From Spirogloea muscicola (lineage: Eukaryota > Streptophyta > Zygnematophyceae > Spirogloeales > Spirogloeaceae), in NCBI GenBank assembly GCA_009602725.1, contig WELB01000021.1:885079-949078 (forward strand): a stretch of DNA of 64,000 nucleotides, in the 5' to 3' direction. The position numbers were made by a program, and so were the translations under genes. Positions within the stretch are counted from its first letter, which is position 1. Every line of letters starts with the position of its first letter. The notes beneath the pieces were generated by a model. That model saw nothing but the letters and a program-made list of their open reading frames with translations. It was not told where the DNA came from and ran no database searches. Below, piece by piece: positions 431 through 63,620 of the stretch.

Positions 431-1690
431 TCTATGCCCCTTCCAGCCGTCAGACCTTCCATCTGCGTCATTTCGTGTCTAGTTGTACATTTTTTTTGGG
501 CACCTTTTTGTGGCCTTTGGATATTGTCCATTCTTTTCTGGGCTGGCTTTGCTAGCCCCTCTCTCCTCTTTTTCTATGGGCGAGCAAGTTCTTGTCAGAC
601 CTTGTTGAAAGCGTCTTTCTCTCTCTTGTTCACTCCACTTGGGCTGGCCTCTCACAGCCACTGCCTTACTTTGAACGACCTGTTTAGGACCTATATTTCT
701 CCCTTCCTGAGTGACTCTTCTCCAGCTGCAAGTCACTCCGACCTGTGGCTGCTGACTCGGGTTACCAAGCTCCCATCCGCTGCAGTCACTTGCATAGCTG
801 TGAGGTTTTAGCGCTTTTCGGCCCTTTGGACCTTGTCCATTCTTACCGGACTAGCCTTTCACAGCCCTCGACCCCTTCAGGCCCCGCAGTCGCTGCTTAG
901 CTCGTACTTTGGCCCCTTCGAACCTTGTCAATTCTTTTCGGGCTGGCTTCTAACAGCCCTTGCCCCCATTGGGAGAACCACTTCTTCTTTGGAAGAGCGA
1001 CTCTCTTTTTTGCTTGATACTTGCTTAGCTGTGTCGCTGTGTTGCAAGCTCTAATTGCGCTGGCCTCTCACTGCAATCGCCTCACTTTGGACAAGCTGGT
1101 TCTTCTTTCCTCGCGAGAGTGCTTCTTCTCTGTTCGTGCTCGGCGTGCCCTGACTTCTGCCTCCTCTACTGGGAAGGAGTTGCTCCGCAACTCCCTAATC
1201 CTAAACCCCGCAACTCCCTTCCTGCTGCTACTTTTACTGACTTGCGGCTGCTAACTAGGGGTTACTGAGCAGGCACACGTAGTAATCCCTCCACGTTTTC
1301 CTCGGCTCCACTGGACTTTGTTCATATTATGTAGGCAGGCTTTCCGCAGCCCTCCCCCCTTGAGAAAAACAGCTCTTCCAATGTAAGGAGATGGCTGTGA
1401 GCAGCTCTCCTATTCAAGCTGCGAGTTACTCCGACCTGCGGCTGCTGACGAGGGGTTTGAGCTCCTATTTGCTGTGGTCACATGCATAGCTGTGTGCTAT
1501 GAGCACCATTCAGCCATTCGGACCTCGTCCACACTTTTTGGGCTGGCTTTTCACAGCCCTCGCCCCCTATGGACGAGCCACTTTCTTTGCACGAGCTGCT
1601 TCTCTCTACGTGCTGCTACTTCTCCAACTTGCGGCTGCTAAATTGGCGATTATTGAACAGGCACCCCTAGTGGTCTTCAAGCTTTTCTGA
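430..1690 (+). mobile_element. Array of truncated LINE 3' ends
   Basis: At least six LINE 3' ends lie head-to-tail here. Each has a pyrimidine-rich lead (CTTGTCCATTCTTTT-like), a hairpin close to GGGCTGGCTTTTCACAGCCC and a short tail. Several also keep the last codons of the ORF, read as SDLWLLTR or similar before the stop (about 735-770 and 1430-1455). Hairpins sit near 540, 645, 850, 940, 1060, 1345 and 1540. From about 690 onward the array matches 62.7-63.6 kb in reverse. The stretch around 590-690 is extra in the left arm. No copy is long enough to code. Confidence 0.75.
880..988 (+). mobile_element. 105-bp LINE-tail unit, left-arm insertion 1
   Basis: Runs from CCCCGCAGTCGCTGCTTAGC through the hairpin near 940 to GAACCACTTCTTC. 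The matching place in the right arm (about 63.37-63.41 kb) has the flanks joined without it, so it inserted after the arms separated. It is nearly identical over its whole length to the units at 2.23 and 18.56 kb, including the 5' end. Confidence 0.7.
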
Positions 1691-1789
1691 CTCGTTTGGC
1701 CTCCCTTTCCTTTCCTGCGCACCACGCGCCTTCTCGCTTTCCTCTAGCACTGTTCATGAGGCGAAGTGACGGGAGGTGAGTAGCAGTGA

Positions 1790-2180
1790 TACCCAAAAGT
1801 TCTTGCCAAAAGGGGGCTCTGGTTGTGCCAGGCCAGCCCAAAAGCGATAGACAAGGTCCGAAGGGCCGGTTAGGGCCAAACCAGACAGCTACGCAAGTGG
1901 CTTCCACGAATGGCTGCATGGGCCTCATTCATCTGATATTGGGGGTGCCTCGTGCCAGATTATGGGATGCTCCTGCGCCTTCCGGCATCTGGTATTTGCC
2001 ATCTGGTGTTCAGGCATCGATTGGCGACCTCTAAGTGTTGACCCGTGGTCACTGAGCCGGTCAACTTGCAGGGGGTGATGTACGTCATTAGATGTGCTTG
2101 CCTTTGTACTTCTGCCAGTTTGCCTTTCGGTTCTTTCAACTTTACGAAAGTTCTTCCTTCCGGCCCTTTCAGACCTTAAT
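1790..2180 (+). mobile_element. LINE fragments of a second subfamily
   Basis: A minus-strand hairpin tail (about 1790-1880) is followed on the plus strand by the end of a second LINE subfamily. The reading PSGVQASIGDL near 1990-2033 corresponds to the ORF end seen better at 17.31-17.51 kb. Its 3' tail carries the conserved run GATGTGCTTGCCTTTGTACT near 2093-2112. The reverse copy is at about 62.2-62.6 kb. Short and non-coding. Confidence 0.6.
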
Positions 2181-2227
2181 TATAGTTGGTTGGAGTGGTC
2201 CATCCTCCCCAGTTGTGCCATAGCCTC

Positions 2228-2338
2228 TTCATACCCCGTAGTCGCTGCTTAGCTCGTAGTTTGGCCCCTTCGAACCTTGTCAACTCTTTTCGGGCTGGCT
2301 TCTCACAGCCCTTGCCCCCATTGGGAGAGCCACTTCTT
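2228..2338 (+). mobile_element. 105-bp LINE-tail unit, left-arm insertion 2
   Basis: Same unit as at 880-988: starts CCCCGTAGTCGCTGCTTAGC and ends GAGCCACTTCTTTC. The right arm (about 62.17-62.22 kb) shows a shorter, continuous LINE tail at the matching position, so this copy is also specific to the left arm. Confidence 0.7.
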
Positions 2339-2339
2339 T

Positions 2340-2960
2340 CTCACAGCGACTGCCGTATAAGCTGTTTCTTTTTGGTTGCCCTGTCATACGCTGGGCCCCG
2401 CACGCCGCGACGCTTGCTGACCAACTCTTGCTGAGTACTTGGAAGTCCGCGGGACTTCCAGCTGGGTGCACACCAGGTCGTGGCGCAGCCGCTAGAGCGT
2501 GGCGACGGCGGCCCGCAAGCGCCACCGTCAAACACCACCACCCGGCCCCCCACCGCCAATTAGTCGCAAAGACCTACCTAGAGGCTGCGAAAAGCGTGCA
2601 AAACAAGGACAGTTGCTGGAGGCTTCAGCTTGGCGAGGGTGCCGCCACAGGACGGAGGCACTAAGAAGGCAGTGTGAAGGGGCTGACTTCACATCGCCCT
2701 TGTGCCACTGTTTTGCTTATTCAGCTGGCTAGGTCAAGCGCACCTTCTATTGTATTCATGAGTATTCTTGAGTGTTGTGTACCGCGACCTGTGGAGCTCG
2801 GGTAGCCAAAAGGCAAGCAGAAGCCTCGATGTTGCCCTCAACTCGCACCTTCTTCACGACTTCTCGCGAGGCCTCCACTGAGCGCCTGACCAAGTCTGGC
2901 AGATGAGCCTTCTCACAGCCTGAGATTTCCGAGTACCTAGCGCACTTTTCCAAAGGGCAA
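2340..2960. other. Conserved inter-gene stretch, no gene assigned
   Basis: GC-rich around 2400-2550 and duplicated in reverse at about 61.6-62.15 kb. All six frames are short and none shows a family I know. It may contain the promoter side of gene C, whose first plausible ATG is at 2977. Confidence 0.4.
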
Positions 2961-2976
2961 CCTCTTCAGCAGACCA

Positions 2977-5163
2977 ATGGAAACTGTAGGTAGAGCTAAC
3001 AACGACTCTGCTGACCAGCTCAATGGAACAGCGCAGACTGTAGCTAGAGCTATCATCGACTCTGCTGGCAAACTCAACGGAACAGCTTCATGAGCTGCTG
3101 GTAAGGCTGTCTGCTTTCTTCATTAAGAGAGGTTGCCCAGTCAACAAATTCATTTGCACATGCAATGCCTCCACCTTTGGCTCCTAGGCCACTTGGCAGC
3201 ACAGCTACTACTCACGCGAGCTGCCCTTCTTGTGCAGCTCGAGTCGGGGAATCAGCGGAAGCAGCAAAAGCTACCATGGTACAGATGAATGTTGCGGGCA
3301 ATGCCTTTTCCAGTGCAGCCACTCATGCTGAAGAAGTAGCATATTCGGCTCAGGTTGCTTGCACCAAGGCTGGCAATGCAAGCAATGCCATAGAAAAACT
3401 AGCCAACACAACAGCATCATTGGTGGGAGAGCTTGGACCGAGGATTAGTACGACATACGATCAAGCATCGTCAACTCTTGGTGCTGTTCAAGATTCTGTC
3501 AACTAGATCACACCACAGGCCGCCTCGACTGTGGAGACGGTCCAAAACTCTGTCCAAGACTTGACGCCCACTGCACAAAGTGCACTGCACTCGTTGAGTG
3601 CCACAAGTGAGGCAGTGAGACAAAATATTCCAGCCTTGGTGCAAAGCTGTCAGGTCATTAGTTCAGCAAGCCTGCTTTTGCTTGTTGACTTAGTGCTGCT
3701 CGCTGCATTATCGGCACGCTTGGTCTGACATACAGGCTGTGCTCATACCAAGCACAAACTGCTATATTTGAAGCAACGGAAGATCATGAATCTCACAATC
3801 TGTATGGTCCTAGCCTTGGACGAACTTTTCTATCCGCTCTATCGGTGTTTCTTGACTGATTGCTTTGTCAGTGTTTCTTGACTGTTTGCTATGTTGACTG
3901 TTTCTCTTCAGGCTGCAGCTGTAGCAACTGTTGCAGGCGCTGCAGCTTTGGCTAGAACAGCTAGGGGTCTGAAAAGAATTGCTGTGAATTCTTCAAGAAT
4001 GGTTGCTACGAAAGAGGCCAGCCCGGTCTCCCGAGCAGCTGATAGAATTTCCAACAGAGCAGGCGGTTTCTTCAAGGCTTTGAAGGATGTTCAGCATGGC
4101 TTATTCATCCCTGCCACTGAAGATGCATACTTGATGTGCTGCAACCACTTCACCAAAGAAATGCAAGAGCGTCACTTGGCCAGGTAAGTAGCAACATCTC
4201 AAGAATGGCACACTGCCACCTCACACAATGCGATCCAACCATTCGTGCTGTGCTTTCAGTACAATGCACTACCCAGCAGTCCTGGCCCGCTTCTCAAGTC
4301 TATGTGAAGGCTTTGCAGCGATCCAGTCTAGCTGACGTTCCAATATAAGCTTCAGTGACTCTTTTCTGTCATTAGGCTGGGCCATGAGACATTGAAGATA
4401 TGTATGAAAAATGTGTCATATGCTGCAGGACACCAAAGCATGCAATAGAGAAAGTCAAGGCAATGCGCGAAAGTGGTGTGCTGCTAAAAGAGAAGGAGGT
4501 TGTCTACCATCGCGATGTCATTGTTGCCACCTGTGATAAAGCCATCATTGAGATGCCAGAAAGGATGGGTCGCTTTATAATCTGTGGCAGCACTGACTTG
4601 CATGGACAGCCTTACATCCAGCTGAAGGGGATAATTTGTGACATGGACAAGCCTGGTGCACCAATGGGGAAAGTCATGAATCTAGGATGGCAACCTCAAC
4701 ATGCTGCACTGGAGATGGTCTTCAACTTGCTTACACTTGCTTACCTTGATTGCAATTGCCATGCACACGTGTAGAACTTTGGATCAGGTGAACGTATCAG
4801 TCTGCTCGTGCCAAGAACGTAGAGATGAAGAAATCTAAACTCAAGGAACATATCTCGACCTGACCGTCCAATATCGGTTTGTCATACTCTCGTGAAGGGA
4901 GCATTGTGGTCTGCAGCTGGAGGTGTACTTGGAGGTGCCTCGCAAGCAGTTTCTATGAAGTTGTTGGGCACAGGGTTGATCAAGCTTGCACTTAGATCCT
5001 GCCTTGGTAGTGTAAATTCCAGGATATTGTAATAACAACCACAACTGTGTTGGAGGGATTTACTTTCTGGGCGTGCAAGCAGTACAAGGTGCCAAAAGAC
5101 AAGCAGGTGGAGAGAGGGCTGTTCCATGGCGGCAATCCTTTACCAGTATGCGAAGCAAGTTGA
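2977..5163 (+). pseudogene. Gene C, left copy: helical membrane-protein family, broken
   Basis: Function not recognised. The 5' part has short repeats (TVxRAxxDSAxxLNGTA, about 2980-3095). After an acceptor near 3237 comes a long helical segment, then a hydrophobic stretch (LLLLVDLVLLAALSA, about 3663-3720). Further exons are 3912-4183 (acceptor TTCAG, donor GTAAGT) and 4429-about 4720. Their joint restores one codon (LAR/TPKHAIEK). A last exon near 4917-5163 encodes GGVLGGASQAVSMKL. Lesions seen: an in-frame TAG at 3504-3506 in a helical repeat where the frame otherwise continues, and an indel near 5010-5030 relative to the right copy. The motif PATEDAYLMC resembles AATYDAYYAC of gene B. Exon limits after 4700 are uncertain. 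Confidence 0.6.
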
Positions 5164-5169
5164 GTGCGA

Positions 5170-6500
5170 GCTGAGCCACCAAAATTAGTAATGACTATGG
5201 TAACATAGGGAACCAGCTGGGCTGGGAACCCACTGACTCAGCCCTGTGGTCAACTAAAGTGCTTGTCTGTGTCAAGAGCGCACCAGTACATCGGGCTCAG
5301 TCATTCCGAAGCCAAAAACTCTTAATGTTACTGAGGCGAGCGAGTCTGCGTGCATGCCCTAGCTATTGCTGCTATCCACCATAGGCGCGAGCTGAGCCTG
5401 TAAAACTTTTGATTTGTCTGCCGCCATAAGCGGTGCTCGTCTGTACCCCTTGGAAAGGGAAACGGCAAGCTAAGTACCTTTGGTTGGGGAAGACAATAAT
5501 TGGCGGTGGCGACTTTCGAAGCCAATCTGGACATGCCACTTGATGTGTAGCCAGCTTTGACTAAAATTAAGTTTGGGCCCACTGGGCTGCTCGCAGCTCG
5601 TCCTCTCCCAAGCTGTCACGTCATGCATCCTGGACAATCTGGAGATACAAGGCAATAGAGCTGCTTTACATTAGGGGCGTATGGGGGTGTTGTAGATTTT
5701 CAGCAAGTTCAGGGCTTTGTCAGCCAACCTCTGGGGAGAACGCTCTAGCTGCGACCATAGTAGTCAGTTTCATCTGAGGACTAGCTGGTCGGCATTGTCA
5801 TTAAGCCGCTCGCTAGCGAGATAAATATCTGTATCTAAAGGCAAGCTTGAGAACAGAAGAAGTGACAGCACGTTCCTGCATGTGACTGGCAAACATACGA
5901 GTTCAGGAAGACGAGCCTGTACAGGACCTTGTTAAAAGTGAATGCTTTGGTGCTACAGATTGCGGAACATTGAAGCGGCATTTCTAGCTAGGCATCAGCT
6001 GCTCACCGTCCTCATGGGGTTTCCACCTGAATGCAGTGCTCTGTACGATTCCTTCCAGATGGTAGCTGGGGAGCATTAGACGCTACACTATGTGCTGGAT
6101 TGCCTGCTTCACAAAATGAAGCAAGAGAGTTGGAGGGACTAGGGTGAGTTACCAGACAGCACATCGACCAATCCAAGTGGACGCCATTCAGGAACAAGGC
6201 ATATACTAGCAAATGTTAGCGTACTACCGTCGCCAGATGACATAGTCAAAGAAGATGTCACATACCTGTGATGAAGACTGCCACTCTCTACATTTCCATC
6301 TTCCTACTCCACCTGAATCCTGGGCTGAAGCCATGACTCACATACTCATACCGAGCAGGTGATCTACCAAAGCAGTGGAATGCACGAGGCCACATGATCT
6401 TTGGACACGAGACAAGCCCACCTTTGCCCATCCTAGGGTGTTCGACTTCTGTGGGTGGATGAGCAATCCAAGTGGATTACAACACAACTTGCAACATAAG
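5170..6500. other. Intergenic stretch shared by both arms
   Basis: No recognised domain. The reverse match is about 58.85-60.15 kb. One short reading on the minus strand at 6012-6212 (66 aa, containing NSLASFCEAGNPAHS) is kept open in both arms with conservative changes, so it could be an exon of gene E, but I cannot place its splice sites. Confidence 0.35.
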
Positions 6501-6520
6501 CTCGTCGGTGTTATGGTAGA

Positions 6521-7044
6521 TTACAGTAAGCAAGTAAAGAGACCTTGTTTGATCTTGAGGTAAGGAATATAGGTATACAGCAAATATGCAGTTTTTGGAC
6601 GGAAAGGAGGTCCAGATGACTCCGCCTGTCTCCTCAGGCCTTCAAGATAGTAGGTGACGTACAATAGTGGCCTGCACCTGACGAATCTAAGCTTGTAGTT
6701 AATGAGGAGGCAGGAGATGAGACTGGCGACTGAGTCGAGTGAAGTGCAAGGAGTTGACAAATGAGGCTGCTGCATTAGTGAGAGACAGGCCGAAAAGCTG
6801 AAGGGGAGGTAGCCAGGTTATATACGCCAGATTTGAGAGAAGCTAGTGCTCTTGCCAATGCAATTGTTCTTGAGCCTTTCAGCATGTAATAAGCCATGAG
6901 CAGTGCTGATGCTACGAAGCAGGCTGCTATCCCCAAGAACTCACACAGTGAAAGGAGAAATGCTGATCCATGCTGGCTATGGATGAGTGTCACCTTTTCC
7001 CACCCGTTCACTGGCAGGGTAATACTGAAACTTGTCAGATCCAT
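6521..7044 (-). CDS. Gene E, left copy: hypothetical membrane protein
   Basis: Not recognised. The ATG at 7042-7044 begins MDLTSFS. About 34 residues later comes a hydrophobic segment (LGIAACFVASALLMAYY) followed by basic residues (MLKGSR), as in a single membrane span. A second conserved block at 6521-6775 on the same strand contains SLISCLLINYKLRFVRC and VTYYLEGLRRQ, and probably belongs to another exon. The whole is duplicated at 58.3-58.8 kb. There the reading has a stop soon after the start, so the left copy is the better one. A TATA-like CATAAAAG lies just upstream of the ATG in both arms. Exon joints not resolved. Confidence 0.4.
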
Positions 7045-7159
7045 CCCGCTCCTGCATGGCTCCCTTTTATGGACGGGCAGATCAGAACGCCCAAGAGCAC
7101 GGCTACGCAAGAAAAGTTGGAAGGCAGTGTGTCGGCTAAAACCATGACCAAGCAAAGAA

Positions 7160-8150
7160 GTCCACAGGCGTCAGACGGTGGATGAGGAAATCACTCGCCC
7201 CCACACACTCACGTTGTCCCCTTTACAGCCTCCCTGCCCTTCCGGCCTCAAGTACACCAATTTTATATCTGTGATGAGTAATTATCAAGTATCTGCCATC
7301 ACCGGCGTACACCCACGGCCCTACACCGACCATCTACCCTTGGTGTACTGCCACCGGAAGCTGTATCAGTAATTTGTTGATGAAACTCATGAAGGCGTCG
7401 TTCCTGCACAGTGTCCTCTAGACCACTGGAATTGTGAATATACACCTGAAGTGCTGCTGTCTGTAATATCTGGCAGTGGCCCGACCAATCTTGCTTAGTA
7501 GCCTCCACAGCCACAACCGGGATCATGTCCTGGCAGAACTATGTCAGCTAGTAGCTATTGCGTCTCTCGATTACAACCAGAGTACACAACAAGAAGGCCG
7601 AAGTACTCAGATTTGTCACATCTTAGAAATTATTATGCACACCTTGCTGGAGGTGCTACTCGTCATTGAGTGACATCAGGCAGCTCAGACCGAACAGGTC
7701 AGATGTGATGAATGAACTGACACGCTGTAAAGCGTGAAGTGCAATTATCTGCACGAAAAGGTGGAAGGTTGGACGTGCATCTCATGGATATCAGGGTTGG
7801 TAATTTAAGAGTATCTCTGAGGCGCTTCAAAGTGCCTCAGGAAAAAATGTCTGGTAGATTAATGCTCTTGCGGAGGGAAGCGAAAGCCCGTGTGCACATA
7901 ACACAGAAAGTGCAGCAACATCGTTGCATGGAAGTAATTATTCGATGGAGCTCGAATACTTCCAAAGCAGAGTCTGGACATTGGAATACTTCCAAAGCAG
8001 AGTCTGGACATTGGTAGCATCTCAAAACTCCACCAGGCCTAGTCTTTATACCAGTCACCAAGCTAGAATGCACATGCGAATGTATACTAGAACCACCCTG
8101 TATGCCATTGACATCCTTGCTCATGATCCTTGAACCTCTTGAACCATAGG
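7160..8150. other. Stretch between gene E and WRKY
   Basis: Shared by both arms. A minus-strand reading at 7299-7526 (containing ALQVYIHNSSGLEDTVQER) stays open in both copies with few changes. It may be an exon or chance conservation of young duplicates. Nothing else was identified apart from the 30-bp tandem repeat listed separately. Confidence 0.3.
7954..8013. repeat. 30-bp tandem repeat, two units
   Basis: Two identical 30-bp units (7954-7983 and 7984-8013, core TCCAAAGCAGAGTCTGGACA), 138 bp beyond the WRKY stop codon and so probably in or near its 3' untranslated region. Both units are also present in the right arm at 57336-57395, with slight differences, so the repeat predates the duplication. 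Confidence 0.9.
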
Positions 8151-10087
8151 TCAGCTCCACATATTGTCGAAGTCTGAGAGACCTAGCGGTGCAAAGCCAT
8201 TTCCTGGTTCTGCTGTTTCTCCATAAGGCAGACGCCAGTGACCTTGCGAGTGCAAGTTATGTGCCTTCACTGGACCTGCTTCTGACTGGGAGCTGAAGAA
8301 GGATTCGACAGCCTCAGATTCCGGGGAGAATCCCAGGGACTCGCTGGAGCTTGGTGTAGAACTGTAGTCCTCCATGTCTTCCGCCCCTGAGCCCGCTGCA
8401 GCGACATCCTCATAGCCTGCATCCTGTCCCTCGAAGATTGCTGCGATGTTCATGTTGCAATCTGCATCAGCCTTATGTGTGTACTGCTCACATGTGATCC
8501 ATGGGTCCACGGGCACACCATTTGATGCTTTTGAAGTTGCTGGTGCAGGCCCCAATATCTGAGCTCTCGTATGTGGAAGTGCGGCAGTGCTTGGTCCTCC
8601 TCTAGGTGGCGGATGAGGATCTCTTGGACCGATGTCAATGGGCGGGCCCCCATTCTGGCCGATGAGAGAGATCGTGATTGGTTTTGGAGGGGCAGCGTGG
8701 GTATGATAGCCAAGATAGGTGACAACATACACATTCTTGTCGTCCTTAGATACCTCCACTTTCTTCTTTGCCAGGCATGGCTGGTCAGAGTCCTCCAGGC
8801 TGCAGTGGAAGTAATTGCGAGGATTTGGGGAGCTCTTGATGGGCTTCCTGCCGTATTTGCGCCAACTCCAACCATCGTCAGGGATGTGCTTCTCGTCCAA
8901 GGGCACTTGGCTTATCACGTGTATCTCCTTAGTGGGCACCTTTGGTCTGCAAAAGTTGGATGTTGAAGGTGTTAGTACACATGTAGATTGCGAAGTTGCC
9001 ACAGCTAGCCGCTCACACGCCGTGCCAGCAATTTGAGATGACGTCCAAATTCGATACAATGAGACTGTTGTCGTGTCGATGTTGATGAGCTCAGATTTCT
9101 CGTGGTGAGCAAGCTCATGCAATGTGGCTCATTGCAATTGACCACACCCAAATGCATGTAGCACTCACTTTCTTAGAGATTGGCGACTGCCATCTCTCCT
9201 GTCGCCATTGGAGCATCTGGTCCGCTTGGCTCCGCCACGTTTGTCAGCATACTGGTTGAGAACAACAGCTCCCTCGTCGCAGTGTGATTCATTCGTCGCC
9301 CTATCGGCACTGGCTTGCAAGCAGACATCCTCCTCCATCTTCACGGGTAGCAGGGCTGAGTATCCAGCGAGGTGAGACGTGCTCTTCTCACTGGAGGTTG
9401 TCGATGCAGACATTGGGCTCGGGGGTGCCGTATGCGGGCAAAGGGAGAAAGGTCCTTGGCTGCTGCATGCTCCCAGATGGACCACTCGATCAAGGGCGAG
9501 AGAGGGAGAAGAAGCATGTGGACTGGCTACTTCCAAATGGCCTGCAAGGACACAGAACTCCAGTAACTGCTCTTGGGCTTGCAGCAATGTGGCCGTGAGA
9601 TCCGCAAGCTGCCTCTGCCCAGTGCTTGTTGTACACGTGGCTGCTGATGCCCCGAACTTTCTGCAACAAGTAGGAAGGCACGAAGTATTGAAGGATCCGC
9701 GAGCGCCAGACGTTGGAGCAGCTTCATCACACAATGTAGCACACTCAAGCACAGCAAGGTTCCAGGTAGCAACTGAGCAGATGGGCGGGTAGGATCAAGC
9801 AGCCGTGTGGAAGGCTTTACAAAAAGACTCGCTACTGCGAAGGGCGGTCTTGTGTCTGAGCGCCGAGAGCTGTACCCAGCTGCAGCTGCCCATGGTGCCA
9901 GCTGAGCGAGGTCGTGACACATCTCTTGCTGGCAAGCAGAGCTCCTCTGGATCCACAGCAGCTCGGCGAGAGTCGCGAGGTTGCCGACGGTGAGGCTGAG
10001 AGCGGAGGCGGCCTCCATGAGCCGGCGCGCAGCGTGAGCGTGGAGGTCCGAGCCGCCCGCGGGGCTTCCTTGGGGCAGCCGCGCCAT
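8151..10087 (-). CDS. WRKY transcription factor, left copy, intact
   Basis: A DNA-binding regulator expected to act in the nucleus on W-box (TTGAC) sites. Three exons fit together exactly: 10087-9876, 9660-9169 and 8946-8151, giving 1500 nt and 499 residues. Donors are GTACAG and GTGAGT, acceptors TTGCAG and TTTGCAG, and a TACTAAC branch site lies 24 nt before exon 3. Residues 1-110 are helical (LATLAELLWIQ; QLADLTATLLQAQEQLLEF). A basic stretch (KRGGAKRTR) before the domain may be a nuclear signal. The WRKY domain is at about 258-320 with WRKYGRK (263-269) instead of WRKYGQK. Zinc ligands are C283, C292, H316 and H318, spacing C-X8-C-X23-H-X-H. The tail is acidic and Ser-rich, like an activation region. 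Family assignment is firm; the subgroup (IIe-like) is inferred. Confidence 0.9.
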
Positions 10088-10425
10088 TGGGAAGACGGCG
10101 CAAGGGCTTGGGAGTGGCGGGGGCGCTCGCTTAGCAGGGGCTGGGCCTTCCGCGACGAGGAGCAGCGGCCGGGGAGCCGTCGCGGCGGTAGGTGGGCAAT
10201 GCGGGCTTGTGCTGCGAGACGGGGCCCCGCGGCGCTTATATGGGCGCGGCGGCGGCGGCGGCGGCGGCCCGCGCCGGAGTCCGCCCGCCCGGCCGGGCTC
10301 CGCCACTCCGCCACCGCCACTACCGTTTACACGTATCTTGGACTCCGCCCTCGTGGGCGGGGGGGCCCGGCCGGGCGGGGCCCGCCACCAAGGTCAACGC
10401 CCGGCTGGCCGGCCGCCACGTGGCG
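10087..10425 (-). promoter_or_regulatory. WRKY promoter, left copy
   Basis: On the minus strand a TATA box (TATAAG, 10235-10240) lies about 150 bp before the ATG at 10087, which predicts transcription from about 10205. Further upstream are a W-box (TTGACC, 10392-10397) and a G-box (CACGTG, 10417-10422) in very GC-rich DNA. The TATA box and G-box are kept in the right arm at matching places. The W-box is TTGACC only here and is CTGACC in the right arm. Binding of the protein to its own W-box would be typical of WRKY genes but is inference. Confidence 0.65.
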
Positions 10426-10594
10426 CTGGCTCAGCTTCCCGCCACTCTGCTGTGCGCGAAACCTGGCCGGCTTCCCGGCAGCCTCCAGTAGGCGTCGGGA
10501 TTGCCAGTTCTTGCTCTGCGCAGACAGCAGCCCATCCTCGAGACGCGAACGCTTGCGTGGAAGAGAAGAAACGCTTTTCCAGTTTAGGGCGCTG

Positions 10595-10640
10595 GCTGTG
10601 ATTAGCCAGCCCATAAAAGAAGGAACAAAGTGCGTCAAAT
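10595..10640 (-). mobile_element. LINE hairpin tail upstream of WRKY
   Basis: A short LINE tail (GGGCTGGCTAATCACAGCCA on the minus strand) lies about 530 bp upstream of the WRKY start. It is present at the matching position in the right arm (54735-54780), so it inserted before the duplication. Confidence 0.6.
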
Positions 10641-11045
10641 CTAGTCACAGGCTCGCTCTCCCGGCTTCTGCCGGGCCACTTGACAGGCTACTCGCGTATC
10701 CTGCGCCACATCTGTATCGTCTTTTAAGCGTGGATGTCGAGCGCACCGTCATCACGAATTGCTTGTCCATGAGCCGCCACCAGCAAGGCGCTGTTCTAAA
10801 GCTGGGCTGGCTACCATGGCCACAGCCCCCTGGAATAGCTTCTTCTGCTCGAGCTAGCAGTGCTGACCACATTGTCCAGATGACATATAATCGAATCGCA
10901 TGGTCTGGGTTGGCGGCAAGCGCACATCCTCGATCTGGTGGCACGAACAACATTGCATCGAGATCTCAAGACGCAAGCTACCACCCCTTGCATGTTCAAT
11001 GGACCTGCAACAACCAGACCGCTTGTTCTTGAAGGTAGGGAGTGA

Positions 11046-13024: not shown

Positions 13025-13100
13025 GGACGACATAGGGCCCACGGCTCCACATCGGGCCCACGGCTCCATATCGGGCCCACGGCCCGCCATCGGGCCCACG
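13025..13100 (+). repeat. 18-bp GGGCCCACGGC minisatellite
   Basis: Four units of about 18 bp built on ATCGGGCCCACGGCTCC. The same array is at 15234-15309 in tandem copy 2 and, inverted with small changes, at 52262-52335 in the right arm. Confidence 0.8.
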
Positions 13101-51870: not shown

Positions 51871-51899
51871 CTAATTGAATGCCTCTGGTGATGTTACAC

Positions 51900-53840: not shown

Positions 53841-54037
53841 GCAGTTTTCGAAAGTGCAAGAGGACTGTTGATTCTATTGTCACTTTATAATACCATGCAA
53901 ATTTCATCTTCAGTATCAATCTCGTAACTGCGAGCATTGACAGTAACGTGCCGTTCATAAACGTACAGCTGCATGTGCTGTACCTCGGGGAACGCCCTTG
54001 GCTGTGACAGCACACATAATTCTCATGTCATCGTGCA

Positions 54038-54310
54038 TCATCTTGACTGGACCAGCGAATCTTTGACTGTGAACGTCTGCTCATGCATTAGACTATGCAT
54101 GATGGGCGCGATGGGGGCCATTCGAAGCACATGACTTTCTCTGCCGCAGTCGGCAGGGATTATCAGGGCCAGCATTCTGAAATTCAAGTCACTGCTGCAG
54201 TCGACAAGGTCCAATAACGCCAGCATCATAGTTAAAATAACTAGTCTGCTGAATAAGAGTAGCAATAGGGCTCGGTGTAAATTACGGATTGCTTCCTGTG
54301 TCAGATGCAT
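54038..54310 (-). CDS. Small hydrophobic ORF, right copy
   Basis: 90 codons from ATG at 54310 (MHLTQEAIRNL) with a leucine-rich core. Counterpart of 11046-11216, which stops after 56 codons. Function unknown. It could be chance. Confidence 0.3.
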   Translation of the reverse strand: MHLTQEAIRNLHRALLLLLFSRLVILTMMLALLDLVDCSSDLNFRMLALIIPADCGRESHVLRMAPIAPIMHSLMHEQTFTVKDSLVQSR

Positions 54311-54947
54311 TCACTCCCTACCTTCAAGAACAAGCGGTCTGATTGGTGCAGGTCCATTGAACATGCAAGGGGTGGTAGCCTGCGTCTTGAGTCTTCAACG
54401 CAATGTTGGTCGTGCCACCAGATCGAGGATGTGCGCTTGCCGCCAACCCAGACCATGCGACTCGATTATATGTCATCTGGACAATGTGGTCAGCACTGCT
54501 AGCTCGAGCAGAAGAAGCTCTTCCAGGGGGGCAGTGGCCATGGTAGCCAGCCCAGCTTTAGAACAGCACCTTGCTGGTGGCGGCTCATGGACAGCAGCAA
54601 TTCGTGATGACGGTGCGCTCGACATCCACGCTTAGAAGAAGTTACAGATGTGGCGCAGGATACGCGAGTAGCCTGTCAAGTGGCCCGGCAGAAGCCGGGA
54701 GAGCGAGCCTGTGACTAGATTTGACGCACTTTGTTCATTCTGTTTTCTGGGCTGGCTAATCACAGCCAGCGCCCTAAACTGGAAAATTCATTCTTCTATC
54801 CCACGCAAGCGTTCGCGTCTCGAGGATGGGCTGCTGTCTATGCAGAGCAAGAACTGGCAATCCCGACGCGTATCGGAGGCTGCCGGGAAGCCGGCAGGGT
54901 ATCGCGTGACAGCAGGCTGGCGGGAAGCGGAGAGCCCGGGCCAGCGC

Positions 54948-55253
54948 CACGTGGCGGCCGGCGAGCGGGGGCGCTGACCTGGGCAGCGGGCCCCGCACGG
55001 CCGGGCCCCCCCCCAGCCCACGCGGTAGTGGCGGTGGCGGAGTGGCAGAGCCAGCCGGCGCTGCAGGCGGATTCCGCTGCGGGCCGCCACCGACGCCGCC
55101 GCCGCGCCCATATAAAGCGCCGCGGGCCCCCGTCTCTCACAAGCTCGCATTGCCCACCTACCGCCGCGGCGGCTCCCCGGCCGCTGCTCCTCACAGCCCC
55201 TGCTGCTAAGCGAGCGCCCCCGCCACTCCCAAGCCCTTGCGCCGTCTCCCCAA
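54948..55253 (+). promoter_or_regulatory. WRKY promoter, right copy
   Basis: G-box CACGTG (54948-54953) and TATAAAG (55111-55117), 142 bp before the ATG at 55253. The W-box of the left copy is CTGACC here. Confidence 0.65.
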
Positions 55254-57196
55254 TGGCGCGGCTGCCCCAGCGAAGCCCCGCCGGCGGCTCGGACCTCCAC
55301 GCTCACGCTGCGCGCCGGCTCATGGAGGCCGCCTCCGCTCTCAGCCTCACCGTCAGCAACCTTGCGACTCTCGCCGAGCTGCTGTGGATCCAGAGGAGCT
55401 CTGCTTGCCAGCAAGAGATGTGTCACGACCTCGCTCAGCTGGCACCATGGGCAGCTGCAGCTAGGTACAGCTCTCGGCGCTCAGACACAAGACCGCCCTT
55501 CGCAGTAGCGAGTCTTTTGTAAAGCCCTCCGCACGGCTGCTTGTTCCTACCCGCCCATCTGCTCAGTTGCTACCTGGAAACTTGCTGTGCTTGAGTGTGC
55601 TACATTGTGCGATGAAGCTGCTCCAACGTCTGGCGCTCGCGGGTCCTTCAATCCTTCGTGCCTTCCTACTTGTTGCAGAAAGTTCGGGGCATCAGCAGCC
55701 ACGTGTACAACAAGCACTGGGCAGAAGCAGCTTGCGGATCTCACGGACACATTGCTGCAAGCCCAAGAGCAGTTACTGGAGTTCCGTGTCCTTGCAGGCC
55801 ATTTGGAAGTAGCCAGTCCACATGCTTCTTCTCCCTCTCTCGCCCTTGATCGAGTGGTCAATCTGGGAGCATGCAGCAGCCAAGGACCTTCCTCCCTTTG
55901 CCCGCATACGGCACCCGCGAGCCCAATGTCTGTATCGACAGTCTCCAGTGAGAAGAACACGTCTCACCTCGCTGGATACTCAGCCCTGCTACCCATGAAG
56001 ATGGAGGAGGATGTCTGCTTGCAAGCCAGTGCCGATAGGGCGACGAATGAATCACACTGCGACGAGGGAGCTGTTGTTCTCACCCAGTATGCTGACAAAC
56101 GTGGCGGAGCCAAGCGGACCAGATGCTCCAATGGCGACAGGAGCGATGGCAGTCGCCAATCTCCAAGAAAGTGAGTGCTACATGCATCTGGGTGTGGTCA
56201 ATTGCAATGAGCCACACTGCATGAGCTTGCTCAACACGAGAACTCTGAGCTCATCAAAATCGACACGACAACAGTCTCATTGCATCGACTTGGGACGTCA
56301 TCTCAAAAAGAATTGCTGGCACGGTGTGTGAGCGGCTAACTGTGGCAATTTTACAATCCACATGTGTACTAACACCTTCAACATCCAACTTTTGCAGACC
56401 AAAGGTGCCCACTAAGGAGATACACGTGATAGTCCAAGAGCCCTTCGACGAGAAGCACATCCCTGACGATGGTTGGAGTTGGCGTAAATACGGCAGGAAG
56501 CCCATCAAGAGCTCGCCAAATCCTCGCAATTACTTCCGCTGCAGCCTGGAGGACTTGGACCAGCCATGCCTGGCAAAGAAGAAAGTGGAGGTTTCTAAGG
56601 ACGACAAGAATGTGTATGTTGTCACCTATCTTGGCTATCATACCCACGCTGCCCCTCCAAAACCAATCACGATCTCTCTCATCAGCCAGATTGGGGCCCC
56701 GCCCATTGACATCGGTCCAAGAGATCCTCAGCAGCCACCTAGAGGAGGACCGAGCACTGCCACACTTCCACATACGAGAGCTCATCAGATGTTGGGGCCT
56801 GCACCAGCAACTTCAAAAGCATCAAATGGTGTGCCCGTGGACCCATGCATCACATGTGAGCAGTACACACATAAGGCTGGTGTAGATTGCAACATGAACA
56901 TCGCAACAATCTTCGAGGGACAGGATGCAGGCTATACAGATGTTGCTGCAGCGGGCTCAGGGGCGGAAGCCATGGAGGACTACATTTCTACACCAAGCTC
57001 CAGCAAGTCCTTGGGATTCTTCCCGGAATCTGAGGCTGTCGAACCCTTCTTCAGCTCCCAGTCAGAAGCAGGTCCAGTGAAGGCACATGTCTTGCACTCG
57101 CAAGGTCACTGGCGTCTGCCTTATTAAAAAACAGCAGAACCAGGAAATGGCTTTGCACCGCTAGGTCTCTCAGACTTCAGCAATATATGGAGCTAA
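55253..57196 (+). CDS. WRKY transcription factor, right copy, C-terminally shortened
   Basis: Counterpart of the left WRKY gene with the same exons: 55253-55464, 55679-56170 and 56398-57127, joints in frame, branch site TACTAAC at 56367-56373. It keeps WRKYGRK and the C-X8-C-X23-H-X-H zinc ligands, with Arg for His just before the first Cys. An early TAA at 57125-57127 (GGA-GAA in the left copy is TAA-AAA here) gives 477 residues. The original frame continues open to TAA at 57194-57196, so 22 residues are lost. Exon 3 proteins of the two copies are about 90% identical by eye. The DNA-binding part is whole, so the product may still bind DNA. Expression unknown. Confidence 0.85.
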
Positions 57197-57335
57197 GCTA
57201 TGGTTCCACAGGTTCAAGGATCATACGCAAGGATATTACCGGCATACAAGGTGGTTTGTGGTATATATTCGCATGTGCATTGCTAGCTTGGTGACTGGTA
57301 TCAAGACTAGGCCTAGTGGAATGTTGAGATGTTAC

Positions 57336-57395
57336 CAATGTCCAGACTCTGCTTTGGAAGTAATCCAATGTCCAGACTCTGCTTTCGAAGTATTC
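57336..57395. repeat. 30-bp tandem repeat, right copy
   Basis: Two units (57336-57365 and 57366-57395), reverse complement of 7954-8013. The second unit has one substitution. Confidence 0.9.
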
Positions 57396-57399
57396 CACC

Positions 57400-58300
57400 T
57401 CCGTCAAATAATTACTCCCATGCAACGATGTTGCTGCACTTTCTGTGTGATGTGCACACAGGCTTCCGCTTCCCTCCGCAAGGGCATTACTCTATCAGAC
57501 ATTTTTTCCTGAGGCACTTTGAAGCGCCTCAGAGATACTCTCAAAGTGCCAACCCTGTTATCCATGAGATGCACGTCCAATCTTCCACCTTTTCGTGCAG
57601 ATAATCGCACTTCACGCTTTACAGCGTGTCACATTATATCATCACATCTGACCTGTTCGGATTGAGCTGCCTGATGTCACTCAATGACGAGTAGCACCTC
57701 CAGCAAGGTGTGCATCATAATTCCTAAGATGTGACAAATCTGAGTACTTCGGCCTTCTTGTTGTGTACTCTTATTGTATTTGAGAGACGCAATAGCTACT
57801 AGCCGACATAATTCTGCCAGGACATAATCCCGGTTGTGGCTGTTGAGTCTACTAAGCAAGATTGGGTGGGCCACTGCCAGATGTTACCAACAGCGGCACT
57901 TCAGGTGTATATTCAGAAATCTAGTGGTCTAGACGACTCTGTGCAGGAACGACGCCTTCATGGGTTTCATCAACAAATTACTGATACAGCTTCCGGTGGC
58001 AGTACACCAAGGGGAGATGGTCGGTGTAGGGCCGTGGGTGTACGCCGGTGATTGCAGATAGTTGATAATAACTCATCACAGATCAAAAATTGGTGTACTT
58101 GTGGCCGGAAGGGTAGGGAGGCTGTAAAGGGGACAACGTGAGTGTGTGGGGGCGAGTGAGTTCCTCATCCACCGTCTGACGCCTGTGGACTACTTTGTTT
58201 GGTCATGATTTTAGCCGACACACTGCCTTCCAACTTTTCTTGCGTAGCTGTGCTCTTGGGCGTTCTGATCTGCCCGTCCATAAAAGGGAGCCTTGCAGGA
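57400..58300. other. Stretch between WRKY and gene E, right arm
   Basis: Counterpart of 7.05-7.95 kb. A plus-strand reading at 57836-58051 stays open in both arms. No family recognised. Confidence 0.3.
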
Positions 58301-58305
58301 GCGGG

Positions 58306-58824
58306 ATGGATCTGACAAGTTTCAGTATCACCATGCCAGTGAACGGGTGGGAAAAGGTGACACTCATCCATAGCCAGCATGGATGAACATTTCTCCCTTC
58401 ACTGTGTGAGTTCTTGGGGATAGCAGCCTGCTTCGTAGCATCAGCACTGCTCATGGCTTCTTACATGCTAAAAGGCTCAAGAAAGACAGCATTGGCAAGA
58501 GCACTAGCTCTCTCAAATCTGGCGTGTATAACCTGGCTACCTCCGCTTCAGCTTCTGGGCCTGTCTCTCACTAATGCAGCAGCCTCATCTGTCAACTCGC
58601 ACTGCCTCGACTCAGTCGCCAATCTCATCTCCTGCCTCCTCATTAGGTACAAGCTTAGATTCGTCAGGTGCAGGCCACTATTGTACGTCACCTACTATCT
58701 TGAAGGCCTAAGGAGACAGGCGGAGTCATCTGGACCTCCTTTTCGTCCAAAAACTGCATCTTTGTTGCATACCCATATTCCTTTCCTCAAGATCAAACAA
58801 GTTGTCTTTACTTGCTTACTGTAA
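58306..58824 (+). pseudogene. Gene E, right copy, early stop
   Basis: ATG at 58306 (MDLTSFSITMP). After SQHG the frame meets TGA (58382-58384) where the left copy has TCA (Ser). The same frame then continues open through the membrane segment (LGIAACFVASALLMASYML) and the block NLISCLLIRYKLRFVRC ... VTYYLEGLRRQ to 58824. A 1-bp length difference from the left copy lies near 58510. Function unknown. Confidence 0.4.
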
Positions 58825-58849
58825 TCTACCATAACAAACTGACGAGCTT

Positions 58850-60170
58850 ATGTTGCAAGTCGTGTTGTAATCCACTTGGATTGCGCATCCACCCACAAAA
58901 ATCGAACACCCTATGATGGGCAACGGTGGTCCTGTCTCGTGTCCAAAGCATGTGGCCTCGTGCATTCTACTGCTTTGGTAGATCACCTGCTCGGTATGAA
59001 TATGTGAGTCATGGCTTCAGCCCAGGATTCAGGTAGAGAAGGAAGATGGAAATGTAGAGAGTGGCAGTCTTCATCACAGATATGTGACATCTTTGTTGAC
59101 TATGTCGTCTGGCGACGGTCGTACGCTAGTATTTGCTTGTATATGCCTTGTTGCTGAATCGTGTCCACTTGGATTGGTCGATGTGCTGTCTGGTAAATCA
59201 CCCTAGTCTCTCCAACTCTCTTGCTTCATTTTGTGAAGCAGGCAAGCCAGCACATAGTGTAGCGTCTAATGCTCCCCAGCTACCATCTAGAAGGAGTCGT
59301 ACAGAGCACTGCATTCAGGTGGAAGCCCCATGAGGACGGTGAGCAGCTGATGCCTCGCAAGAAATGCCGCTTCAATGTTCCGCAATCTGTAGCACCAAAG
59401 CCTTCACTTTTAACAAGGTCCTGTACAGGCTCGTCTTTCTGAACTCGCCAGTTACATGCAGGAACGTGCTAACACTTCTTCTGTTCCCAAGCTTGCCTGA
59501 AAACTCAGATATGCATCTCGCTAGCGAGCTGCTTAATGACAATGCAGACCAGCTAGTCCTCAGATGAATTGACTACTATGGTCGCAGCTAGAGCGTTCTC
59601 CCCAGAGGTTGGCTGACAAAGCCCTGAACTTGCTGAAATTCTACAACACCCCCATACGCCCCTAATGTAAAGCAGCTCTGTCGCCTTGTATCTCCAGATT
59701 GTCTAATATGCATGACGTGACAGCTTGGGAGAGGACAGGCTGCGAGCAGCCCAGTGGGCTGAAACTTAATTTCAGTCCAAGCTGGCTACACATCATGTTG
59801 CATCTCCAGATTGGCTTCGGAAGCCGCCACCGCCGATTATTGTCTTCCCCAACCAAAGGTACTCAGCTTGCCATTTCCCTTTCCAAGGGGTACAGACGCA
59901 GCACCGCTTATGTCCGGCAGACAAACAAAAATCTTACAGGCTCAGCTTGCGCCTATGGTGGATAGCAGCAATAGCTAAGGCATGCACGCAGACTCGCTCG
60001 CCTTAGTAACTTTAAGGGTTTGGCTTCGGAATGAATGAGCCCGATGTACTGGTGCGCTCTTGACACAGACAAGCACTCTAGTTGACCACCGGGCTGAGTC
60101 AGTGGGTTCCCAGCCCCGCTGGTTCCCTATATTACCATAGTCATTACTAATCTTGGTGGCTCAGCTCGCA
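58850..60170. other. Intergenic stretch, right arm
   Basis: Counterpart of 5.2-6.5 kb. Short plus-strand readings (59133-59333, 59364-59567, 59699-59965) have partners in the left arm but no known family. Confidence 0.35.
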
Positions 60171-60171
60171 C

Positions 60172-61620
60172 TCAACTTGCTTCACATACTGGTAAAGGAT
60201 TGCCGCCATGGAACAGCCCTCTCTCCACCTGCTTGTCTTTTGGCACCTTGTACTGCTTGCACGCCCAGAAAATTAATCTCAACACAGTTGTGTTTCTTAT
60301 TACAATGCCATATCCTGGAAGTACACTAACAAGGCAGGATCTAAGTGCAAGCTTGATCAACCCTGTGCTCAACAACTTCATAGAAACTGCTTGCGAGGCA
60401 CCTCCAAGTATGCCTCCAGCTGCAGACCACAATGCTCCCTTCACGAAAGTATGACAAACAGATATTGGACGGTCAGGTCGAGATATTTTCCTTGAAGAGT
60501 TCAGGTTTCTTCATCTCTACGTTCTTGGGACGAGCAGACTGATACGTTCACCTGATCCAAAATACTACACGTATGTATGGCAATTGCAATCAAGGTAAGC
60601 AAGAAGACCACCTCCAGTGCAGCATGTTGAGGTTGCCATCCTAGATTCATGACTTTCCCATTGGTGCACCAGACTTGTCCATGCCACACATTATCCCCTT
60701 CAGCTGGATGTAAGGCTGTCCATGCAAGTCAGTGCTGCCACAGATTATAAAGCGACCCATCCCTTCTGGCATCTCAATGATGTCTTCATCACAGGTGGCA
60801 ACAATGACATCGTGATGGTCGACAACCTCTCCCTCTTTTAGCAGCACACCACTTTCGCGCATTGCCTTGACTTTCTCTATTGCATGCTTTGGTGTCCTGC
60901 AGCATATGACACACAATTTCCATTCACATCTTCAATGTCTCATGGCCCAGCCTGACGACAGATAAGAGTCACTGAAGCTTATATTGGAATGTCAGCTAGA
61001 CTGGATCGCTGCAAAGCCTTCACATAGAGTTGAGAAGCGGGCCAGGACTGCTGGGTAGTGCATTGTACTGAAAGCACAGTACGAACGGTTGGATCGCACT
61101 CTGTGAGGTGGCAGTGTGCCATTCTTGAGATGTTGCTACTTACCTGGCCCAGTGACGCTCTTGCATTTCGTTGATGAAGTGGTTGCAGCACATCAAGTAT
61201 GCATCTTCAGTGACAGGGATGAATACACCATGCTGAACATCCTTCAAAGCCTTGGAAAAACCGCCTGCTCTGTTGGAAACTCCATCAGCTGCTCGGAAGA
61301 CCAGGCTGGCCTCTTTCGTGGCAACCATTCTTGTAGAATTCACAGCGTTCATTTTCAGACTCTTAGCTGTACTAGCCAGAGCTGCAGCGCCTGCAACACT
61401 TGCAACAGCTGCAGCCTGAAGGAAAACATAGCAATCAGTCAGGAAACACTGACAAAGCAATCAGCCAAGAAACACCGATGAAGCGGATAGAAAAGTTCGT
61501 CCAAGGCTATGACCATACAGATTGTGAGATTCATGCTTTTCCGTTGCGGCAGTTGGTCTGCTGAAGGGGGTGCCCTTTGGAAGAGTGCGCTAGATACTCA
61601 GAAACCTCAGGCTGTGAGAA
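60172..61620 (-). pseudogene. Gene C, right copy, 5' exons deleted
   Basis: Exon 61415-61144 (AAAVASVAGAAALASTAK ... VTEDAYLMCC, donor GTAAGT), exon about 60900-60660 (TPKHAIEKVKAMRESGVLL, MGRFIICGSTDLHGQPYIQL) and the last exon 60444-60172 (GGILGGASQAVSMKLL ... YGIVIRNTTVLRLIFWACK). The last exon is open here but broken in the left copy. A 1-bp loss (GGGGAAAG to GGGAAAG, about 60660) shifts the second exon. About 0.8 kb of the left copy (2985-3780), with the helical repeats and the hydrophobic segment, is missing at about 61560. Confidence 0.6.
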
Positions 61621-62200
61621 GGCTCATCAGCCACACTTGGTCAGGCGCTCAGTGGAGGCCTCGCGAGAAGTCGTGAAGAAGGTGTGAGTTGAGGGCAACA
61701 TCGAGGTTTCTGCTGGCCTTTTGGCTACCCGAGCTCCACAGGTCGCGGAACACAACATTCAAACATACTGCAATAGAAGGTGCGCCAGACCTAGCCGGCT
61801 GAATAAGACAAAACAGTGGCACAAGGGCGATGTGAAGTCAGCCCCTTCACACTGCCTTCTTAGCTGCCTCCGTCCTGTGGCGGCACCCTCGCCAAGCTGA
61901 AGCCTCCAGCAACTCAGTCCTTGTTTTGCACGCTTCTCGCAGCCTCTAAGCAGGTCTTTGCGACTAACTGGCGGTGGGGGGCCGGGTGGTGGTGTTTGGC
62001 GGTGGCGGTTGCGGGCCGCCGCCGCGACGCTCTGGCGGCTGCGCCACGACGTGTGTGCACCCAGCTGGAAGTTCCGCGGACTTCCAGGTACTCAGCAAGA
62101 GTTGGTCAGCAACTGTCGCGGCATGCCGTGGCCGCGTATGACAGTGCAACCGAAAAGAAACAACTTATACGGCAGTGGCTGTGAGAGCCAACCCAATAAC
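61620..62200. other. Conserved inter-gene stretch, right arm
   Basis: Counterpart of 2.34-2.95 kb, GC-rich near 61.97-62.05 kb. No gene recognised. Confidence 0.4.
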
Positions 62201-63620
62201 ATTGAACAAGGTCTGAAAGGGCCGGAAGGAAGAACTTATGTAAAGTTGAAAGAATCGAAGGCCAAAATGGCCAAACACAAAGGCAAGCACATCTAACGAC
62301 GTACATCACCCACTGCAAATTGACCGGCTCAGTAAGCACGGGTCAACACATAGAGGTCGCCAATCAATGCCTGAACACCAGATGGCAAATACCAGATGCC
62401 GGAAGGCGCAGGAGCACCCCATAATCTGGCACGAGGCACCCCCCAATATCAGATGATGAGGGCTATGCAGCCACTCGTGGAAGCCACTTGCGTAGCTGTC
62501 TGGTTTGGCCCAAACCGGCACTTCGGACCTTGTCCATCGCTTTGGGCTGGCTTGTCACAACCATAGCCCCCTATTTGCAAGAACTTTTGAGTATCACTGC
62601 TACTCATCCCCCGTGGCCACTTCGCCTCATAAATAGTGGTAGAGAAAAGCGAGAAGGCGCGCGGCGCGCAGGAAAGGAGAGGGAGGCCAAACGAGTCAGG
62701 AAAACATGAAGACCATTAGGGGTGCCTCTTCAATAACTGCCCATTCAGCAGCCGCAAGTTGGAGAAGTAGCAGCACGTAGAAGGAAGCAGCTCGTGCAAA
62801 GAAAGTGGCTCGTCCAAAGGGGGCGAGGGCTGTAAAAAGCCAGCCCAAGAAGTGTGGACGAAGTCCGAATGACTGAATGGTGCTCATATCACACAGCTAT
62901 GCAAGTGACCACAGCAAATAGGAGCTCAAACCCCTCGTCAGCAGCCGCAGGGCGGAGAAACTCGCAGCTTGAATAGGAGAGCTGCTCACAGCCATCTCCT
63001 TACATTGGAGGAGCTTTTCTCAAGGGGGGAGGGCTGCGGAAAGCCAGCCCACAAAAAAAAAAAAACAAACTCCAGTGGAGCCGAGGAAAACGTGGAAGGA
63101 TCACTAAGTGTGCCTGCTCAGTAACCCCTAGTTAGCAGCCGCAAGTCCGTAAAAGTAGCAGCAGGAAGGGAGTTGCGGGTTTTAGGATTTGGGAGTTGCG
63201 GAGCAACTCTTTCCCAGTAGAGGAGGCAGAAGTCAGGGCACGCCGAGCACGAGAAGAATAGAGAAGAAGCACTCTCGCGAGGATAGAAGAACCAGCTTGG
63301 CCAAAGTGAGGCGATTGCAGTGAGAGGCCAGCCCAATCAGAGCTTGCAACACAGCAACACAGCTAAGCAAGTATCAAGCAAAAAAGAGAGGTCGCTCTTT
63401 CAACGGGTCGAGGGCTGTGAAAGGCTAGCCCGGAAAGAGTGGACAAGGTCAAAAGGGCCGAAAAGCACTAAAACCTCACAGCTATGCAAGTGATTGCAGC
63501 GGATGGGAGCTTAGTAACCCGAGTCAGCAGCCACAGGTCGGAGTGACTTGCACCTGGAGAAGAGTCACTCAGAAAGGAAGTGCGCGCCCATAGAGAAGAG
63601 GGGCTGGCAAAGCCAGCCCA
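62200..63620 (-). mobile_element. Array of truncated LINE 3' ends, right arm
   Basis: Counterpart of 0.69-2.2 kb, without the 105-bp insertions. Subfamily-2 tail at 62240-62400. Hairpin tails near 62200, 62545 (plus), 62840, 63035, 63330, 63425 and 63610. ORF-end codons (DLRLLTRGY, SDLWLLTR) lie near 63120-63145 and 63510-63545. Confidence 0.7.

Follow-up and report, generated by a model that had tools for sequence, protein, structure and literature searches.

An inverted WRKY gene duplication in the alga Spirogloea muscicola is part of a larger cluster of repeated units

Introduction

How did two long arms carrying the same genes in mirror order come to flank a 33-kb centre in the genome of the streptophyte alga Spirogloea muscicola? 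The question is raised by a window of 64,000 nucleotides (GenBank assembly GCA_009602725.1, contig WELB01000021.1, here C21, positions 885,079 to 949,078, i.e. C21:885079-949078), in which an initial annotation had seen a large inverted duplication including a transcription-factor gene. Comparison of the left arm (L) and the right arm (R) with each other and with the genome, where searches covered 153 Mb in 471 contigs, replaces the picture of a giant inverted repeat standing alone by that of a cluster of WRKY-bearing units, one of them inverted, in which a breakpoint and switches of kinship can be mapped. Among the titles listed for S. muscicola, its WRKY genes and inverted duplications, none names this locus, from which we make no claim that it is unpublished.

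Results

Two inverted arms around a 33.4-kb centre

The inverted repeat is present in the assembly: in a self-BLAST of the window, positions 699-16784 pair with 63580-50150. The 16-kb and 13-kb arms and the 33-kb centre of the initial annotation are thereby recovered as L (699..16784, plus strand), R (50150..63580, minus strand, inverted relative to L) and a centre of 33.4 kb (16788..50149, plus strand). The outer end of L lies at or beyond 699 and its inner breakpoint at 16784, and the arm contains a 230-N gap and a doubled stretch. The paired blocks are 699-877 with 63580-63402, 989-2177 with 63403-62208, 2339-2977 with 62186-61553, 3773-13830 with 61547-51537 (10,116 columns, 92.9% identity), 14146-16039 with 53442-51537 (90.1%) and 16159-16784 with 50789-50150 (75.9%, or 80.5% in a finer alignment). 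Both arms contain a WRKY domain (PF03106, above the curated score, with E-values of 1.1e-21 in R and 1.6e-20 in L), which bears out the presence of a transcription-factor gene, and solved WRKY domain structures match that of R.

In a MAFFT alignment of 699-13830, leaving out a suspect tract described below, 10,680 of 11,386 bases are identical (93.8%), and the arms are indeed too diverged for a simple fold-back error. Apart from substitutions (6%), they differ by insertions and by the loss of about 790 bp from R. The bases at 2978..3772 (plus strand) are present in L and in other copies, the corresponding junction in R being at 61547-61553; this is a deletion in R, because U1, C25, C361 and (from 3050) C370, related copies introduced below, also carry them. 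Counted in 500-base bins over 1000-13499, identity is 89-97%, with the bin at 3000 empty owing to the R deletion and the bin at 12000 at 100%. At the inner end of L (15612..16784, plus strand) identity drops to 83% at 15612-16011 and to 80.5% across the last 0.6 kb. The arms thus have the properties of an inverted segmental duplication (longer than 1 kb, at least 90% identical, in opposite orientation) except over the innermost 1.2 kb. They are not near-identical throughout, which is the mark of a palindrome kept alike by arm-to-arm gene conversion, given the 89-97% of the bins and the roughly 80% of the inner end.

Arm and centre together form the repeat unit of a WRKY cluster

Among 43 matches of the WRKY segment in the genome, long ones occur at 10 places: five on C21, including the two of the window, and the others on contigs C370, C25, C421, C361 and C9. 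Partial pieces lie on C394, C23 and C1. The genome holds 25 WRKY-domain matches; 11 are full-length in one exon, with 5 of the 11 on C21. Ten of these full-length domains are those of the long-match places, and the eleventh, on C82, is a distant relative. The remaining matches fall on C471, C114 and C42, on C290, C83 and C151 (two pieces each), on C243 and C227 (two pieces each) and on C23 (a fragment with a stop).

The duplication extends beyond the arms. A further unit on the same scaffold, U1, matches the window from 57.3 to 18.8 kb in reverse (C21:785161-821207, in blocks of 75-89% identity); its arm extends outward to C21:776.6 kb, giving a unit of about 46 kb (C21:776-822 kb). Together with smaller blocks, the U1 matches cover 19,412 of the 33,362 bases of the centre; the 19.4 kb in blocks matching U1 (C21:785-822 kb) stand in inverted order. 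The inner end of R runs on into the right end of the centre as in U1, and the order from arm to the centre's right end recurs in C25 and C370. The repeat unit is therefore the arm, with its WRKY gene, plus the centre. Several arms on C21 share one orientation, and one unit, consisting of the centre and the right arm (U2), is inverted. On C361 the arms lie head to tail. The window lies in a cluster of WRKY genes that probably expanded through segmental duplication, the likely source of the 11-domain count with five domains on one scaffold. The initial annotation was right about an inverted duplication with a transcription-factor gene, and missed the membership in a cluster, the duplication of much of the centre and two likely assembly faults.

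Within the centre of U2, a stretch of about 1.8 kb (47420..49270) is inverted relative to U1, and its part at 47.4-48.5 kb is opposite in C25 and C370 too. A Pfam scan found matches to IRX15/GXM, FkbM-type methyltransferase and DUF7796 in the centre; with WRKY, these point to the plant lineage. Scans for tRNA and Rfam RNAs found none. Elsewhere on C21, arm stretches at 699 kb and 781 kb are 94.9% alike and form a second young pair, in direct orientation, and C21:672.8-675.2 kb holds fragments of the outer part of the arm that are 92-94% identical to R, a further young copy. The WRKY match at C290:44968-45063 (minus strand) lies in an open frame of 7309 amino acids, perhaps only from N runs read as open.

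The left arm ends at a derived joint

Arm homology from eight places elsewhere, and from R, stops at 16782-16784, and homology of the centre's far end with C120, U1 and C370 begins at 16788/16789, which places the breakpoint at 16784..16789. No dispersed repeat lies at this joint, and the sequence on both sides of it is 70-83% identical to other copies. At the point where the left arm abuts the centre's far end, the sequence of U1, C120 and C370 continues into a flank that the three share, the flank of U1 past the centre being collinear in C120 and C370. Because arm homology ends and far-end homology begins at this point while the other copies continue into the common flank, the left arm appears to sit at a derived joint. 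The far flank proper to the right unit was not found elsewhere, the long matches listed being only at U1, C120 and C370 besides a short piece of the window. The possibility that the end of C370 truly belongs to the left of the right unit was rejected, the match being only 83% identical.

Kinship of the units changes along the arm

Five of six trees place L and R as sisters, with support of 0.936-1.0. In the sixth, for the innermost 0.6 kb, R pairs with C370 (support 0.997, identity 89.9%) and L stands apart; this inner end of L is at 79-82% to each of five other copies and nearest to none in particular. L and R are thus close relatives only to about 15.6 kb. The non-sister inner end speaks against a single clean inverted duplication of a unit or of a whole arm, and for an L with an old inner end.

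The affinity of both arms to other units also switches. In trees of 3.8-9.6 kb U1 is distant from both arms, and in those of 10.2-11.9 kb it is close to them. Informative sites of L favour C25 over U1 by 809:231 at 4.5-9.4 kb and U1 over C25 by 520:73 at 10.1-12.9 kb, with a maximum excursion of the mosaic of 587 against at most 173 in 2000 permutations. R has the same switch (800:230 and 519:74), and since its counts mirror those of L, the switch is common to both arms. The mosaic counts, four of the trees, the dN/dS values given below and the 93.8% identity rest on one MAFFT alignment. Judged by these kinship switches along the arm, the units appear to recombine. A separate sign of exchange is seen in C370:3238-5484, which is 94% identical to the window at 36.2-38.4 kb though the C370 arm is only about 83% alike.

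Two likely assembly faults in the left arm

The window is built from contig 1 (1-13915) and contig 2 (14146 onward, with a single N at 38830), separated by a 230-N gap (13916..14145). Directly left of window base 1 stand 14,664 N, which represent either a gap or sequence that was withheld and which hide the outer end of L. The end of contig 1 (c1, 11935..13915, plus strand) recurs as the start of contig 2 (c2, 14146..16124, plus strand). All 69 substitutions between c1 and c2 fall at 11942-12402, and the following 1513 bases, the last of the overlap, are identical, so the doubled stretch is probably an unmerged overlap, the first part of c2 being probably the true sequence of L. Because the same stretch stands twice around the gap, the true left arm is probably about 13.9 kb long; the 16 kb given earlier for this arm hold for the assembly, with 2.0 kb probably counted twice. 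A real tandem duplication of 2 kb in L was set aside, short of strict exclusion, as the copies stop exactly at the two edges of the N gap and have in common a run of 1513 bases without a difference.

The same region contains a tract of 578 bp (11979..12556, plus strand) that is 100% identical to R 52810-53387 and spans a (GA)n tract. The next-longest identical run between L and R is 99 bp, and a 578-bp run would be expected by chance 2e-13 times. From 12130 to 12402, c1 equals R at 16 of 16 variable sites, and thereafter c1 equals c2 at 140 of 140; in the stretch matching the tract, c2 and R differ about as often as usual. Both the 2.0-kb doubling and the perfect tract are probably gap-filling errors at the (GA)n tract in which right-arm sequence was used. 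A conversion tract, in place of a gap-filling chimera, is the less likely account of the 578 bp.

Constraint on the WRKY genes of the arms

The WRKY-domain open reading frames (ORFs) of L (8151..9128, minus strand) and R (56249..57127, plus strand) both point away from the centre. The gene of L is open to its end, a stop after ...NMWS, and that of R is shortened by a stop 23 codons earlier. Upstream of the domain lie ORFs at 9165..9794 (minus strand) in L, open also in R and C370 and with a ratio of nonsynonymous to synonymous substitution rates (dN/dS) near 1, and at 55509..56174 (plus strand) in R; a coding role for either is putative. The ORF at 9527..10393 (minus strand) carries a conserved 65-codon stretch (MARLPQ...) of what would be the same WRKY gene of L. 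Among five copies, the ten pairwise dN/dS values are 0.14-0.47 for the WRKY domain and 0.17-0.40 for the 65-codon stretch. The WRKY copies of L and R look less constrained than the family, as judged from these alignments. In C361 the WRKY motif reads WRNYGRK. A scan for coding signal did not set the WRKY gene apart and carries no weight here.

Dispersed repeats in the arms

The arms had been described as filled with long interspersed nuclear elements (LINEs), whose shared insertions would show that an already filled segment was duplicated. No LINE coding sequence was found, and dispersed repeats, defined by two or more matches in 147 kb of neighbouring sequence, are short and cover 7.7% of L, 5.7% of R and 11.9% of the centre. 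The argument from shared insertions holds for short repeats, four of which are common to the arms at matching places, and not for LINEs; at least two dispersed repeats occur in L only. No [YF][AVMC]DD reverse-transcriptase motif is present in the six frames of the window, although LINE kinds lacking it would escape this search, and a Pfam scan of 18 selected window ORFs gave no reverse transcriptase or transposase. With 44 ORFs of one neighbouring stretch (L019) as queries, tblastn returned only short matches of at most 54 residues.

The outer end of R carries a dispersed repeat (63571..64000) with at least 25 near-full copies at 95-97%. Another element of about 400 bp, at 17215-17622, has sharp ends and at least 36 near-full copies at 90-94% among the 40 candidates scored, and related pieces (78%) lie in the arms at 11532-11897 and 53462-53824. 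Outside the window, at L019:3486-4982 (minus strand; C21 about 952.6-954.1 kb), a frame of 499 amino acids matches a copia-type gag domain (PF14223, 1e-19) and then PF00078 (0.02). The latter match is weak, below the Pfam cut-off, and is the sole reverse-transcriptase match found; the frame may be a fused or nested retroelement.

A probably triplicated genome as background

Three Dicer-dimerisation loci are present in the genome, and a published account states three copies for S. muscicola DCL2/3/4 (PMC7994812). Two other WRKY groups occur in threes and one in a pair. Since the Dicer loci and two WRKY groups come in threes, the genome is probably triplicated. At one control place outside the units, the best other copies are 87-90% identical, and because copies there are only so alike, the likeness of L and R is, by this one place, probably younger than the triplication. 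The three Dicer loci, the two WRKY groups in threes and the control copies at 87-90% fit the triplication of S. muscicola, and the WRKY type of the window departs from it in having 11 full domains, not three, with five on one scaffold.

Discussion

How, then, did the left arm come to face the right one? The account that we favour, and to which we give somewhat better than even chances, is that a same-direction unit like U1 once stood on the left, that a deletion left only its arm, and that this arm was made like R by copying or exchange. A single deletion, closed by a non-homologous joint, would have removed both the centre of the left unit and the far flank of the inverted unit, and so would explain the two absences together. 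The closeness of L and R up to about 15.6 kb would come from copying of one arm or from a long exchange between units.

Two other histories compete with this account. An arm-only inverted copy might have been joined to the centre's far end by one template switch or fold-back, with no older left unit and no deletion. A joint with at most a few ambiguous bases and no repeat would suit such an event, as would arms that are close over most of their length. At the inner end, however, R is nearest C370 and is no sister of L (80.5%), so that a later exchange must be added, and the far flank would be expected to the left of L, whereas the only long matches listed, besides a short piece of the window, are those at U1, C120 and C370; the 14.7-kb N run could hide that flank. 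We consider this history unlikely. Alternatively, the whole unit of arm and centre was recently duplicated in inverted orientation as one event and the left centre then deleted, so that one duplication and one deletion would yield both the closeness of the arms and the joint. This predicts that the inner end of L is the sister of that of R, which it is not, unless a C370-like end has since taken the place of the one that R had; the centre of R at 36.2-38.4 kb is indeed 94% alike to C370. To this history we attach the same low credence. Not much different is our view of a continuing process, in which the likeness of the arms would come from mutual conversion, many kilobases at a time, of inverted units 33 kb apart, with the 578-bp tract as a fresh conversion beside an unconverted copy; this too seems rather unlikely.

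A wrong join of two haplotypes on one scaffold had been left open by the initial annotation, and two homeologous loci might be joined in the same way. Such a misjoin would suit the position of contig 1 between runs of 14,664 N and 230 N, the doubling and the likely chimera in the left arm, and the many homeologous copies in the genome. Contig 2 alone, however, carries the inner 2.6 kb of L together with the whole of R; both sides of the joint are 70-83% identical to other copies, as expected of old sequence; and the arms differ by 6% substitutions as well as by insertions and the 790-bp deletion. No rival far flank turned up for the right unit, that of C370 being only 83% identical, and the 87-90% of the best copies at the one control place is not haplotype-like. 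Searches with the arm stretches 5000-7000, 8100-11000 and 60000-64000 gave no long copy above 93% besides dispersed repeats, one fragment of 442 bp at C21:674785 reaching 94%. On these comparisons an artefact of this kind is unlikely, more plainly so than the histories above. Least credible, and to us very improbable indeed, is that the arm is a large mobile element with a WRKY gene as cargo. Copies sharing non-coding sequence do exist on at least 7 contigs; they lack common ends, as homology in U1, C25 and C370 does not stop with the arm but extends into the centre, and neither a transposase or reverse transcriptase in the 18 window ORFs tested nor a YxDD-type motif in the window was found. 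The absence of ends common to all copies led us to reject the mobile element.

Several points weigh against the origin by deletion from a same-direction unit, or against parts of the picture around it. The joint at 16784/16788 and the scaffolding of contig 1 between two N runs would be only as good as the assembly from which both are taken, and the overlap that would link the two contigs opens with the tract identical to R. The centre of the left unit, or the missing flank, could lie inside the 14.7-kb N run or in unassembled DNA. The C370 contig ends before its centre would begin, so read-through there concerns the flank and the joint position only. Either duplication or exchange may have made the arms alike. 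As to the gene, a 148-codon stretch between the 65 codons and the domain has dN/dS of 0.76-1.22 in five pairs, i.e. no constraint, and dS of 0 with dN of 0.040 between L and R, which makes the gene model uncertain there; in the longer WRKY stretch, dS (0.041) and dN (0.043) between L and R are equal. Against a triplicated background, the DNA primase domain occurs at two loci, not three, and the S. muscicola genome is given in one source as 174 Mb in 17,449 scaffolds (PMC11096116), compared with the 153 Mb in 471 contigs used here.

The locus can be compared with inverted segmental duplications and with inverted copy-number variants, for which fold-back, template-switch and origin-dependent inverted-repeat amplification (ODIRA) models exist (e.g. 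PMC3907307, PMC10766186). It resembles them in its large opposite arms and a joint without long homology. It differs in that the arms are 6% diverged, are separated by 33 kb and belong to a multicopy cluster, and in that a deletion accounts best for the joint.

Tandem and segmental clusters of plant transcription-factor genes, among them WRKY genes, form a second class for comparison. Shared features are related WRKY genes lying close together, unequal constraint and decayed copies. The units here differ in being long (about 46 kb for U1), in that one is inverted, and in kinship switches along the arm that involve copies on other contigs as well. For work on the assembly, the locus flags a region that is unreliable for claims about arm length or gene conversion.

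Taken in its setting, the inverted repeat looks like a real and ordinary product of duplication and exchange inside a larger cluster. Were the arms in fact converting each other, this and the kinship switches would point to a WRKY cluster, in an alga related to land plants, whose upstream and coding parts are still exchanged separately. As to function, we propose from the sequence that the arms may serve as extra copies of a WRKY regulator under partly relaxed constraint, and that their inverted layout would need no special role. This one WRKY type has reached 11 full domains in a genome whose other WRKY groups were found in twos or threes.

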